A stretch of 64,000 nt of DNA from Leptogranulimonas caecicola (GCF_023168405.1 NZ_AP025285.1:1672001-1736000), one strand, 5' to 3'; counted from the first letter of the stretch, positions 43,656 to 48,646 are shown. Notes: generated by a model from the letters alone, not told the origin. Translations and numbers: made by a program.

Positions 43656-43758
43656 TATAGCAAGGCTGAGTCACAATGGAGACCTAAAACCGAGCGCTCT
43701 AGGTGCTCCTGCGATAGGGTTAGTAGACATTCCCATGCCCGTGAGAGGAGGGCGCCAA

Positions 43759-45225
43759 GTGGCAGAGAAGGCTTCAGAAAAACGAGCCTGCGCAGATGCA
43801 GAGCAACAGGCTGCCATCGACGCCATCCTCTCAGGGGAAAACGTCTTTCTTACCGGCGGGGCCGGCTGCGGCAAATCCTTCGTGATTGAAGAAGCCTTGC
43901 GCCTCCTGCGCAAAAAGCGACGCAATGTTGTGGTGTGCGCTCCTACAGGCATCGCGGCGCTCAATGTTGGCGGCACTACAGTGCACAGGGCCTTTAAGCT
44001 GGGCCTTGGAGTACAGGGGCGCGGCACGCGCCTTAGGGTGAGAGAGCCCATCTCTCAAGCAGATGTAATCATTATTGATGAGATATCCATGCTGCGATGC
44101 GATCTTTTCGATGCGGTGTCCACCATCATGCGCAAAGTGCGCCCCAGGCCTCAATTGGTGGTGGTAGGCGATTTCTCCCAGCTGCCTCCGGTGGTTGCCG
44201 GCGATGACGAAGCTCATCTCAAAGATGAGTATGGCATGCTCTACCACGGTCCCTTTGCGTTCCAAGGGCGCCGCTGGCAAGAATGGGACTTTCATCCCTT
44301 TATCCTCAGGGATCATCACAGGCAAGCAGACCCTTCATTCTTGGATGCCCTTACCGCCATTCGCAAGGGAGACCCTTCCGCCTGCCAATGGATAAGCCAG
44401 CATGCCTGCGATGAGTATATTGAAGGAGCTCCTTACATCGCCTCTACCAATCGCGTGGTAGACAGGATCAATTCCCGGCGACTGAGCGAACTCTCCGGGA
44501 AAGCCCATACCTTCAAAGCGCGCACCACCGGCTCCTTTGGCTCGGTTCATCCAGTGGACGAGACCATCACTCTCAAGCGTGGGGCACGAGTGGTGTGTTG
44601 CAAGAACGACCCTGACGATGCCTTTGTAAACGGCTCCATAGGCACTGTGATTGGATTCCCTGCAGACGGTCAGGTGCGCGTGGAGCTTGATGGCGGAGAC
44701 ACCGTTACCGTCGAAGCGATGAAATGGAGCGCTCTGGACTACGAAGAGGATGAGGAAGGCGGCCTTCGAGAAGTTGAGAAGGGCACCTATACACAAATAC
44801 CCTTGAGGCTGGCCTGGGCCATGACTATTCATAAGACCCAGGGGCTCACTCTGGATTCTATGAATCTCGACCCCCATTGTTTTGAGAAAGGCCAGCTCTA
44901 CGTAGCCCTTTCAAGGGTGAGATCTGTGAGCGATCTCTATCTCACCTGTCCTATAGATCCCACTTGGCTCATGGTAGACCCCGAGGTGCGCGCTTTCACG
45001 CGCCAGGTGTGGAACATCTCACAAAGCTGGGACCCTGAGGCCCACGCTTATAAGACCCAATGGAGAGAACCCGAGAAAAAGCTTGGCACTGCCACCAGCA
45101 CTCAAAGGAGTGTTCGCAACAAAGAGAGCCGTGAGCGCTCAAAAGTCTCTCAACCTAAAGCGTTTGGGGCTGGACGCACTAGGCCTGCGTGCAAAGCCAA
45201 GGCTCGAACACCACATAGCGATTAA
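43759..45225 (+). CDS. Pif1/RecD-like superfamily 1 DNA helicase
   Basis: A 488-residue protein. Walker A is FLTGGAGCGKSFVIEEALRL, followed by VVVCAPTGIAALNVGGTTVH (motif Ia), Walker B VIIIDEISMLRCD and VVGDFSQLPPVV (motif III). The C-terminal MTIHKTQGLTLDSM and GQLYVALSRVRS are motifs V-VI. This order is that of Pif1 helicases, which unwind DNA 5' to 3' and resolve G-quadruplexes and stalled forks. I prefer the GTG at 43759, 8 bases after GAGGAGG, to the ATG at 43735. The basic C-terminal tail is variable. A LexA box upstream would place it in the SOS response. Its 3' end overlaps the convergent methyltransferase gene by 47 bases. Confidence 0.88.
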   Translation: MAEKASEKRACADAEQQAAIDAILSGENVFLTGGAGCGKSFVIEEALRLLRKKRRNVVVCAPTGIAALNVGGTTVHRAFKLGLGVQGRGTRLRVREPISQADVIIIDEISMLRCDLFDAVSTIMRKVRPRPQLVVVGDFSQLPPVVAGDDEAHLKDEYGMLYHGPFAFQGRRWQEWDFHPFILRDHHRQADPSFLDALTAIRKGDPSACQWISQHACDEYIEGAPYIASTNRVVDRINSRRLSELSGKAHTFKARTTGSFGSVHPVDETITLKRGARVVCCKNDPDDAFVNGSIGTVIGFPADGQVRVELDGGDTVTVEAMKWSALDYEEDEEGGLREVEKGTYTQIPLRLAWAMTIHKTQGLTLDSMNLDPHCFEKGQLYVALSRVRSVSDLYLTCPIDPTWLMVDPEVRAFTRQVWNISQSWDPEAHAYKTQWREPEKKLGTATSTQRSVRNKESRERSKVSQPKAFGAGRTRPACKAKARTPHSD

Positions 45226-45952
45226 GGGTCCCAGAAGACCCATCTGCAAAGAAGCGCGCTCTTTCCTGCACTGGACCCATAAGGCTATCGAGCTCTTCCT
45301 CATCTACGTGGTGACAAAAACGGACTACCTCGGTACTCCCTTGCCATCCCAGCAGCCAATCTTTTGGCCCAAAGCTGTCCACCAACTCTGGCCATCTTTT
45401 GCGAGCTTCTAGAGTTACCTGCTGCGCCTTTGTGGAGAGACGTCCGTCATCCATAAAGCGCCAGCAGGCAACGGCCGCCACCCCGCCCGGAGCCAAAAGG
45501 GAGCTTAGACGCTCTATCAATGCATGCCTCTGAGAGGCAAGAGGAAGGTGGTGTATAAGGCCAAAGCATACCGCCACATCAAAGTTTCCCTGCCACTCCA
45601 CTGGAAGCGGCCCGAGAGAAGCGAGGTCGAACGAAGCCGTGCGCACCCCCTCTAGTCCCATCCCCTCTGCCATCAGCGGCAGACATCTGTCCACCCCTAA
45701 CGCTTCAAAGGCCGCTTCTTGAGGCAACTTCCCTTTGAGCCATGTCTCAAAGCGCAAGTTCCCGCAACCTAAATCAATGAGACGAAGCGGGACTCCTTGG
45801 GCTGCACGGGTCTTGGCAAGAGGGGCAATATAAGGCAGCAGCAACTCCCAACCTTGCCAGCCTTGCTGGCGTGTAGCCGAGAAACTTGCAGCCTCATGCT
45901 CGTAAAACTGCGCAGTGAGTGAAGATGCCAATGCCGCCTGGGCACTATCCAC
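45179..45952 (-). CDS. Trm9-like class I SAM-dependent methyltransferase
   Basis: A 257-residue protein taken from the GTG at 45952, 6 bases after AAAGGGG; the frame is open to 46039. SAM motif I is LRLIDLGCGNLRFETW and motif IV is FDVAVCFGLIHHLPL. The segment FYEHEAASFSATRQQGWQGW resembles the start of the Trm9/ALKBH8 group, which reads roughly Y-N-x-I-A-x-x-F-S-x-T-R-x-x-x-W. VACWRF and the ending VVRFCHHVDEEELDSLM also fit that group. In eukaryotes Trm9 methylates cm5U34 of tRNA to mcm5U34. The Elp3 gene, which makes cm5U, is divergent 170 bases away, supporting a shared tRNA-modification role. Function is inferred. Confidence 0.6.
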   Translation of the reverse strand: MDSAQAALASSLTAQFYEHEAASFSATRQQGWQGWELLLPYIAPLAKTRAAQGVPLRLIDLGCGNLRFETWLKGKLPQEAAFEALGVDRCLPLMAEGMGLEGVRTASFDLASLGPLPVEWQGNFDVAVCFGLIHHLPLASQRHALIERLSSLLAPGGVAAVACWRFMDDGRLSTKAQQVTLEARKRWPELVDSFGPKDWLLGWQGSTEVVRFCHHVDEEELDSLMGPVQERARFFADGSSGTLNRYVVFEPWLCTQA

Positions 45953-46122
45953 GAGTTGCCCCTTTCTTTGATGAACGATGAGGGATGTATCTGGTGCTTT
46001 GGGGGGTCTGCAGCTTAACCGCAAGCTACCAGAACCCACGCAGTTATACTAGCGTGGCCTAGAGGCTGGAGCCTAAGAAGATTTCTTATATAAAACACAC
46101 TGTGATGTAAAGGGGAGGAGCC

Positions 46123-47982
46123 ATGACACTCACCTATAAAGAGCGTTTGGAGCAAGCTCTCCTAGAGCTTGCCAGACAACTTTCTTGCCAAGAGGGCCAG
46201 CTTACCGAGAAGGAGCTTCTTAGGCTTATTAGACAGCAAAACACGGGAATTGTGGCGCCGGATGCTCCTGTGAAAAAGAGAGCGCTTCTCCCCTACTACC
46301 TGCACCAAGACGAGCTTCACCCCGGCATTTGGCAAAAGAAGGGCATCAGTGAAGCCTTGGAAGCGCGCATCAAGGAGCAACTTCGCGCCAAGCCTCGCAG
46401 AACCGCTTCTGGAGTAGCCACGGTCACCGTCATCGCAAAGCCTTGGCCCTGTTCTGGCAACTGTCGCTATTGCCCCAACGACTTGCGCATGCCAAAGAGC
46501 TATCTGGCTGACGAGCCCGCTTGCCAGCGAGCCGAACAATCATTCTTTGATCCTTTCTTGCAAGTCTCCGGAAGGCTGCGCGTACTTAGAGACATGGGCC
46601 ATCACACCGACAAGGTGGAGCTTATCGTACTGGGTGGCACCTGGACAGACTACCCCGCCCCCTATCGCGCCTGGTTTGTGCGCGAGCTTTTTCGCGCCCT
46701 CAACTGCGCAGGTTCACCGGAAGAAAGGACGTTGGCGGCCGAGCGCCGGAAGCGCTACCTGGACGCGGGCTTCTCGGCAGATCCAGTAGGCTGTCAAAAG
46801 CGTGCAGCAGATCTGCAGCCGCAGGTAGATGCCGGTCTCCTCAGTTATAACGAAGGTTGGAAGCGCCTGTGGGCAGAAGATGAGGGTTGGCATGAGCTTG
46901 CGCGTGCGCAAACCGCCACCCTTGAAGAGGTCGAGGCCCAGCAGCAAATAAACGAGCAAGCACGTTGCCGCTGCGTGGGCCTCTCCTTCGAAACGCAGCC
47001 CACTGCCATTAGCGCGACCTCTCTCGAAGAGATGCGGCGGCTCGGCTGCACAAAAGTGCAGATTGGCGTGCAGTCGGTGGACTTCCAGCGCCGGAGCGCC
47101 AGCAATAGGCCCATATCCGATGCCTCACTTGAGCAGGCCTTTGGACTCTTGCGCCTCTTTGGCTTCAAGATCCACGCGCACATTATGGCGAACCTCCCAG
47201 GAGCCACTCCAGAACAAGACAAGCGCGACTACCTGACTCTTGTCACTGATCGCGCCTTCGAGCCAGACGAAGTCAAGCTCTACCCCTGCGCACTTATCCG
47301 AGGCACCGCCCTAGAGCGCGATCATGCAAAGGGCTTGTGGCAGCCCTATAGCCGAGAAGAGCTTTTGGATACTCTGGCCCAAGATGTGCTTGTCACGCCA
47401 CCTTTTGTGCGCATCTCCCGCATGATCAGGGATTTTTCTGCCCAAGACATCGTGGCAGGCAGCCGCGAGGCCAATCTGCGACAGACAGTGGAAGATACCG
47501 TGAACGCCTATGCAAAGGCCAAAGGAATGTCTGTCCAAGAGATTCGCATGAGGGAGATCGCAGGAGAGCAACCATCGGCAGACGAGCTTTCCATGAGCAC
47601 CTACGAATACGAGACGCTGGTTTCCTGCGAGCGCTTCATCTCATGGACCACCCTAGAAGGCTCTATCGCAGGCTTTCTGCGCCTCTCACTGCCCCACCCC
47701 CAGGAGGCTGAGGCTGTACTAGGCTCCCCCGACGCCATGATCCGCGAAGTACATGTATACGGCCGCGTTTCTGAGCTGGGGCTTAAACAACCAGGCGCCC
47801 AGCATCGAGGTCTAGGGCGCACTCTGGTGGAAGAAGCTTGTCGTCAAGCTGCCGAGAAGGGCTATCCCGCCATCAAGGTGATCTCTGCGGTAGGCACGCG
47901 TGAGTACTACCGAGGTCTTGGTTTTAAAGATGCGGGGCTCTATCAAAGAAGGGAACTTCAAACGGGTAATTTACCTGCTTGA
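46123..47982 (+). CDS. Elp3: tRNA uridine(34) 5-carboxymethylation radical SAM/GNAT enzyme
   Basis: A 619-residue protein after GGGGAGGAGCC. Radical SAM cysteines are C110, C114 and C117 in KPWPCSGNCRYCPND. KVELIVLGGTWTDYP, GLSFETQPTAIS and LRLFGFKIHAHIMANLPG are Elp3 signatures. The C-terminal GNAT domain reads AQHRGLGRTLVEEACRQAAE, then YYRGLGFKDAGLYQRREL. Elp3 uses acetyl-CoA and SAM to add a carboxymethyl group to U34 of tRNA. Bacterial and archaeal Elp3 work without the other Elongator subunits, and none is present here. The TGCCGAGAA word appears twice in the gene. Confidence 0.93.
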   Translation: MTLTYKERLEQALLELARQLSCQEGQLTEKELLRLIRQQNTGIVAPDAPVKKRALLPYYLHQDELHPGIWQKKGISEALEARIKEQLRAKPRRTASGVATVTVIAKPWPCSGNCRYCPNDLRMPKSYLADEPACQRAEQSFFDPFLQVSGRLRVLRDMGHHTDKVELIVLGGTWTDYPAPYRAWFVRELFRALNCAGSPEERTLAAERRKRYLDAGFSADPVGCQKRAADLQPQVDAGLLSYNEGWKRLWAEDEGWHELARAQTATLEEVEAQQQINEQARCRCVGLSFETQPTAISATSLEEMRRLGCTKVQIGVQSVDFQRRSASNRPISDASLEQAFGLLRLFGFKIHAHIMANLPGATPEQDKRDYLTLVTDRAFEPDEVKLYPCALIRGTALERDHAKGLWQPYSREELLDTLAQDVLVTPPFVRISRMIRDFSAQDIVAGSREANLRQTVEDTVNAYAKAKGMSVQEIRMREIAGEQPSADELSMSTYEYETLVSCERFISWTTLEGSIAGFLRLSLPHPQEAEAVLGSPDAMIREVHVYGRVSELGLKQPGAQHRGLGRTLVEEACRQAAEKGYPAIKVISAVGTREYYRGLGFKDAGLYQRRELQTGNLPA

Positions 47983-48075: not shown

Positions 48076-48432
48076 TTACTTGAGGTCTTCCTTGGCGGCG
48101 TCGACGCCAGCCTTGAGATCGTCTGCGGCGATATCTGCCTTGGCGCTGTCAACCTCGGCCTTGGCACCTGCCTTTTCTGCAGAAACGCCCACTTTGTCGC
48201 CAGCCTCGCGGGCGGCAGCGCTCGCTTTATCGGCGAAATCATGGGCCTTGTGAGCCAGATCCTCAGCGCCTTCAGCGATATGACTGCCCAAATCCACTGC
48301 GCCATCAGCCGCCTTGTGAGCGCCTTCTGCGGCCTTGGAACCCAAATCCTTGACGACGTCAGCGGCGTCTCCGCCAATCTCGGACGCCTTGCTTGCGATC
48401 TTGTTGCCGATCTCGTTGAAATCAATACCCAT
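48076..48432 (-). CDS. Ala/Lys/Asp-rich helical protein, LEA-like
   Basis: A 118-residue protein starting MGIDFNEIGNKIASKASEIG at 48432 after GGAAGG. It is almost entirely amphipathic helix with irregular 11-residue repeats (KAAEGAHKAADGA, EGAEDLAHKAHDFADKASAA, AREAGDKVG). Such sequences resemble late-embryogenesis-abundant or YtxH/CsbD-like stress proteins, which protect membranes and proteins from drying or osmotic stress. There is no signal peptide or cysteine. It is a single-gene transcript with its own terminator. Confidence 0.6.
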   Translation of the reverse strand: MGIDFNEIGNKIASKASEIGGDAADVVKDLGSKAAEGAHKAADGAVDLGSHIAEGAEDLAHKAHDFADKASAAAREAGDKVGVSAEKAGAKAEVDSAKADIAADDLKAGVDAAKEDLK

Positions 48433-48646
48433 AGTAGTGTCCTTCCACTGCTGAGGAGCGGAACGCCTGCGCGACACCGCTTTTTACTTGACAGGTCTAT
48501 ACCCCTCAATAAATGAGAGACGCCCCGGAACGCCCAAGGGGAGAAAACGGAGGTCTTCTCCGCAAGGCCTTCACGGGGCGCCTTTCAGAAAACTCAGAAG
48601 TGACACTGGGAGAGTGGAAGGGCTCGCAGACGCTTTTCCGCCTGCC

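Follow-up and report, generated by a model that had tools for sequence, protein, structure and literature searches.

In the genome of Leptogranulimonas caecicola, a gene encoding Elp3, a radical S-adenosylmethionine (SAM) and GNAT/lysine acetyltransferase (KAT) enzyme of the kind that carboxymethylates wobble uridines, stands back to back with a gene encoding a Trm9-like class I SAM methyltransferase. The two genes lie at positions 46123–47982 (+ strand, 619 residues) and 45179–45952 (− strand, 257 residues), respectively, of a 64,000-nucleotide stretch, hereafter the window, which spans positions 1672001–1736000 of this 2.0-Mb single-contig genome. We propose, with a probability of roughly two in three, that the two proteins form a two-protein bacterial pathway converting U34 of tRNA into 5-carboxymethyluridine (cm5U34) and then into 5-methoxycarbonylmethyluridine (mcm5U34), where we infer the substrate, the product and the independence from an activator protein from sequence comparisons. 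Elp3 would use SAM and acetyl-CoA to add a carboxymethyl group to C5 of U34, a reaction whose product, cm5U34, has been demonstrated for archaeal Elp3 (PMC13315578). The Trm9-like enzyme would then use SAM to methylate the carboxylate of cm5U34, acting on its own, with no free-standing Trm112 as a partner, and the pair would replace the usual bacterial route to 5-methylaminomethyluridine or its carboxymethylated form, (c)mnm5U34, in actinobacteria that lack MnmE.

Gene order and co-inheritance of the pair

Both reading frames are intact. The methyltransferase frame is also open from position 46039, but the GTG codon at position 45952, with AAGGGG just upstream, corresponds to the start of its relatives. 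Because these begin at the equivalent GTG, we placed the methyltransferase start at 45952, which therefore leaves a shared intergenic region of 170 bases (45953–46122) before the Elp3 ATG at 46123. The original prediction, drawn from the sequence of this DNA, had described a divergent pair with 170 bases between the starts, a figure that is exact when counted from these two codons.

The pairing of Elp3 with the methyltransferase is not accidental. Of the 298 class genomes compared, 173 possess the methyltransferase, and every one of these also possesses Elp3; two have Elp3 only and 123 have neither gene (Fisher p = 3e-83, a value that ignores the relatedness of the genomes); this is the co-occurrence that the original prediction had proposed to look for. 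In both Elp3-only genomes, Elp3 lies at or near a contig end: in one of them (G297) the contig begins 417 bases before Elp3, and in the other (G052) the 1.2 kb upstream of Elp3 contain no methyltransferase gene, which in two congeners (G050 and G051) is found 2.8–4.7 kb away. Within the family, the two genes are located on the same contig and in divergent orientation in 69 of the 69 genomes that have both, and they are within 1.5 kb of each other in 63 of these. Six genomes of the family (G050, G051, G053, G054, G055 and G062) have 2.5–5 kb of other DNA between the two genes, with the divergent orientation kept.

The association also extends beyond close linkage. Two genomes (G251 and G276) keep both genes at distant loci, and one genome (G026), which is 99% complete and assembled in one contig, is devoid of both genes, whereas four congeners have the two. 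In the class of genome G426, Elp3 and a strong methyltransferase match occur in the same four of the 36 genomes (4/4). Finally, in six genomes (G390, G414, G426, G552, G555 and G556) the same methyltransferase family is paired with a canonical Elp3. These recurrences in other lineages and the joint absence within a genus carry more weight than the contingency p-values. The methyltransferase is 93% identical in Olsenella sp. KGMB02461, the only match in one single-protein scan of genome contigs, and this match makes it very probable that the genome is that of a coriobacterium. Note that one genome (G192) contains two full-length Trm9-like methyltransferases (C4:255276–256094 and C6:123767–124519) and one Elp3.

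Relationship of the methyltransferase to Trm9

When compared with Pfam and NCBIfam, the methyltransferase matches generic families only (Methyltransf_23 etc.), and a search of the PDB with this protein sequence alone returned Trm9 in third position (E = 0.023). A profile built from 31 coriobacterial sequences placed Trm9 (PDB code: 5cm2) first, with an E-value of 1.6e-10, the next matches starting from 1.2e-5, five orders of magnitude behind; Trm9 alone was aligned deep into the C-terminal half, and the other matches covered mainly the Rossmann core. Additional evidence comes from a search of the whole phylum: three genomes that do not belong to the class (G390, G414 and G426) have, beside or near a canonical Elp3 (about 1e-180), a methyltransferase of the same family that is closer to Trm9. 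Such bridging methyltransferases come from two further families of the phylum, and one of them matches Trm9 at 9.8e-18. In the reverse search, the best match of a Trm9 profile in the bridging genomes was the Elp3-linked gene (1e-19 to 1e-21), and its sole match in the window's genome was the methyltransferase described here, albeit a weak one (5.5e-4).

When Trm9 of yeast and of Yarrowia is aligned over the full length with the coriobacterial proteins, the bridging proteins and a homologue from a haloarchaeon, a common set of motifs emerges: TR...W, GCGN, H, W, D...W, R[YF]xH...E and N. The yeast Trm9 sequence used here gave a good alignment with PDB 5cm2, and its numbering fits the published mutants; the haloarchaeal Trm9-like reference protein came from a plasmid tblastn search whose other matches were mostly generic methyltransferases. 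The FYEHEAASFSATRQQGW segment, on which the original prediction relied, is present in the methyltransferase and aligns with VYNEIAPHFSQTRYKPW in Trm9, and the C-terminal resemblance to Trm9/ALKBH8 that had been claimed as well is accounted for by the D...W...R[YF]xH...E...N series. Counted singly, each of five motif patterns occurs in 41–42 of the 42 coriobacterial rows and in 6/6 bridging rows, and the three most specific ones occur in none of 16 control methyltransferases. Together, the five patterns single out one of the 117 open reading frames of at least 150 residues in the window, namely that of this methyltransferase.

In yeast Trm9, the substitutions R29A, H115A, R241A, Y243A and N271A impair tRNA binding and activity (PMC5372719). 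Four of these five residues are kept in the methyltransferase and are invariant in the 31 rows: (i) R29 corresponds to R28 in the FSxTR motif (codon at 45869–45871, − strand); (ii) H115 corresponds to H134, the H134–H135 pair (codons at 45548–45553, − strand) being aligned with H115–H116; (iii) R241 corresponds to R211 (codon at 45320–45322, − strand), at the beginning of an RFCH motif that takes the place of RYYH; (iv) N271 corresponds to N244 (codon at 45221–45223, − strand).

Class I methyltransferases are all alike in their core, and the N- and C-terminal segments were therefore tested alone. Hidden Markov models built from the Trm9, haloarchaeal and bridging rows recognized the N-terminal segment in 40 and the C-terminal segment in 38 of the 42 coriobacterial rows (E < 0.01, values that refer to a small test set), none of the 16 controls and no reversed or shuffled row. 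When the bridging rows were omitted from the models, 40 of 42 N-terminal segments and 15 of 42 C-terminal segments were matched at E < 0.05, again with none of the 16 controls. In PDB searches with the C-terminal segment, Trm9 was the top match when coriobacterial and bridging rows were taken together (0.0027, the next being 0.33) and the sole match when the bridging rows were used by themselves (0.011). The methyltransferase was modeled by AlphaFold2 with a predicted local distance difference test score (pLDDT) of 94.9, and the first Foldseek match was Trm9, by a narrow margin, both for this model and for that of a bridging protein.

In the phylogenetic trees, the bridging proteins, Trm9 and the haloarchaeal homologue form a clade that has a support of 98/91 in one build and is absent from a second build; a constraint joining the coriobacterial rows with this clade was not rejected (approximately unbiased test, p-AU 0.60). 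The original prediction, which a grouping with unrelated families would have refuted, is supported on this point: Trm9 is the best PDB match of the profile, homologues found beside canonical Elp3 form a bridge to Trm9 and there is no grouping with an unrelated family, with the reservation that the deep branching order is not settled by the trees. Judged by these comparisons, the methyltransferase is a distant homologue of Trm9. We call it Trm9-like and do not file it as Trm9 because the residue equivalent to Y243 is a cysteine.

Elp3, pathway context and competing explanations

The window Elp3 scores 381.9 bits on TIGR01211, above the curated cut-off of 350, and it matches Elp3s of solved structure in the PDB at E-values as low as 5.9e-80, that of the Elp3 of Dehalococcoides mccartyi (DmcElp3, PDB code: 5l7j), with which it shares 37% identity. 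The two proteins have the radical SAM and KAT residues in common: C110, C114 and C117, the [4Fe-4S] cysteines of the CSGNCRYC motif (46450–46473, + strand), align with C23, C27 and C30 of DmcElp3, and K164, K349 and Y595 are the counterparts of the acetyl-CoA residues K77, K193 and Y441 (for the roles of these residues, see PMC6367351). All six positions are kept in 34/34 coriobacterial Elp3s. The window protein differs from DmcElp3 in having a long N-terminal region, as well as in the insertion and the zinc linker considered below.

As to the pathway context, the standard bacterial route to 5-substituted methyluridines (xm5U34) needs MnmE. In 140 of the 140 genomes of the family, MnmE was below the cut-off of a search that does detect it in controls such as E. 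coli and B. subtilis; the matches in all genomes were sub-cut-off and confined to the G domain (about positions 190–390), and we attribute them to Der-type GTPases instead. The remark of the original prediction about a pair without Trm112 also held: a free-standing Trm112 (PF03966) did not turn up in the window's genome, where the single match was sub-cut-off and inside a PriA-like helicase. The PF03966 matches in relatives, which mostly lie inside frames of about 780 residues like the PriA-like one, were not counted as Trm112.

Several observations weigh against the proposed mcm5U34 pathway. Characterised Trm9 depends on Trm112, which was not found in this genome. The counterpart of Trm9 Y243 in the methyltransferase is C213, a nearly invariant cysteine, and most bridging proteins have Cys, Phe or Val at this position. 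In Elp3, the three zinc-linker cysteines, which are reported as strictly conserved in the bacterial and archaeal enzymes and missing in the eukaryotic ones (and so do not define Elp3 overall), are replaced by V471, E473 and M476, with Cys in 0/34 coriobacterial Elp3s. Moreover, the radical SAM region contains a class-specific insertion of 81 residues (residues 195–275; 46705–46947, + strand), whose length varies from 76 to 111 residues across the 34 coriobacterial Elp3s, as compared with 12 residues in DmcElp3, an excess of about 70–80 residues. On the homology side, Trm9 was missed when the PDB was searched with C-terminal segments from coriobacterial rows only, and the Trm9 profile, when run on several other coriobacteria, found nothing or another methyltransferase instead of the Elp3-linked gene. 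Neither tree build settles the position of the coriobacterial branch relative to Trm9, and the highest VIA-align score of the window model was obtained with METTL6, which forms 3-methylcytidine at position 32 (m3C32; Z 20.9, 3.1 Å, 226 residues).

The long insertion and lost zinc cysteines of Elp3, together with the cysteine replacing Trm9 Y243, would suit a methyltransferase whose substrate is U34 or the product of Elp3 but whose own product is not a plain methyl ester, for instance if the side chain made by the divergent Elp3 is itself a variant one. We consider this unlikely, since Elp3 keeps all radical SAM and acetyl-CoA residues and since the same methyltransferase family pairs with canonical Elp3 in the six genomes mentioned above. 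The structural scores, for their part, would be in keeping with an enzyme that modifies another anticodon-loop position, such as N3 of C32 in the manner of METTL6/Trm140, and is merely functionally coupled to Elp3: METTL6 also has the highest Z with the bridging model (22.9), with Trm9 within 3 Z units, and Trm9 is not among the best 50 VIA-align rows for the window protein. This absence is not counted against Trm9 because its chain has just 184 residues, a short length that depresses Z. As METTL6 is missing from the profile matches at E ≤ 0.1, in which Trm9 comes first, as Foldseek favors Trm9 for both models, however narrowly, and as Trm9 R29, H115, R241 and N271 are kept, an m3C32-type activity appears improbable.

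A methyltransferase of class I with generic Pfam matches could in principle act on an unrelated small molecule or protein and adjoin Elp3 through the shared ancestry of the chromosome region alone. Such a coincidence is very improbable in view of the total lack of methyltransferase-bearing genomes without Elp3 (0/173), the persistence of the pair at unlinked loci, its joint absence in G026 and its recurrence in further lineages whose Elp3 belongs to another subtype. In bacteria, CmoM too methylates a U34 carboxylate, and CmoM chains do figure among the profile matches, so that a CmoM-type enzyme esterifying uridine 5-oxyacetic acid (cmo5U34) also has to be considered; with an E-value of 0.043 for CmoM versus 1.6e-10 for Trm9 in the profile search of the PDB, and with a methyltransferase gene that tracks Elp3, this explanation is hardly credible. 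We thus retain the conversion of U34 into mcm5U34 by Elp3 and the Trm9-like enzyme as the preferred reading. On balance, we also favor the broader view that this would be a complete pathway, consisting of just Elp3 and a Trm112-independent Trm9-like esterifying enzyme, and that more than half of the Coriobacteriia-type genomes sampled, along with certain other lineages of actinobacteria, would rely on it in place of MnmEG.

Surroundings of the locus and relation to known systems

The methyltransferase gene is followed by a convergent PIF1-like helicase gene (43735–45225), the 3' ends of the two genes overlapping by 47 bases. Downstream of Elp3, positions 48076–48477 encode a small Ala/Lys-rich repetitive protein that by eye is like stress or late embryogenesis abundant (LEA)-type amphipathic proteins. 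The only tRNA genes within the window are those of tRNA-Gln(CUG) and tRNA-Trp.

An archaeal pairing of Elp3 with Trm9 has already been proposed, the genes being clustered in S. solfataricus (PMC2584109). As in the present case, Haloferax and Sulfolobus have Elp3 without the other Elongator subunits and with a Trm9 homologue, which in Sulfolobus is a neighbour of Elp3; however, these archaea have Trm112 and Tuc1, whereas the bacterial genes are divergent and no Trm112 was found. The likeness to eukaryotic Trm9, which works with Trm112, and to the ALKBH8 methyltransferase domain comprises the class I fold, the FSxTR...W, DxGCGN, HH, W, D...W, RYxH...E and N motifs, the four kept tRNA-binding and activity residues and a place downstream of Elp3, which is the one proposed here. 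In contrast to its eukaryotic counterparts, the bacterial protein has low identity and a cysteine for Y243, lacks an AlkB or RRM domain as well as the long insertion that precedes the RYYH strand, and comes from a genome in which no Trm112 gene was found. The bacterial MnmE/MnmG and CmoM pathways, which lead to (c)mnm5U34 and to the methyl ester of cmo5U34 (mcmo5U34), respectively, likewise hypermodify C5 of the wobble U34, but with other enzymes and another chemistry, and MnmE was not found in the family.

In one review, mcm5U is listed for archaea and eukaryotes, not for bacteria (PMC7694415), and another states that bacteria have no detectable genes resembling the Trm112-dependent methyltransferases (PMC5372719). 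We found no report of a bacterial Elp3–Trm9 pair in the open-access literature that was searched, most subscription papers and preprints being outside the scope of this search. We predict that the pair is a bacterial variant of a known pathway, new as such, with good but indirect support. If this is true, it would explain how U34 is hypermodified in actinobacteria devoid of MnmE, gut species included. It would also provide a minimal Elp3–Trm9 pair for work on the mechanism, where eukaryotes need Elongator and Trm9–Trm112, and it would raise the question of how a Trm9-type enzyme works without Trm112.

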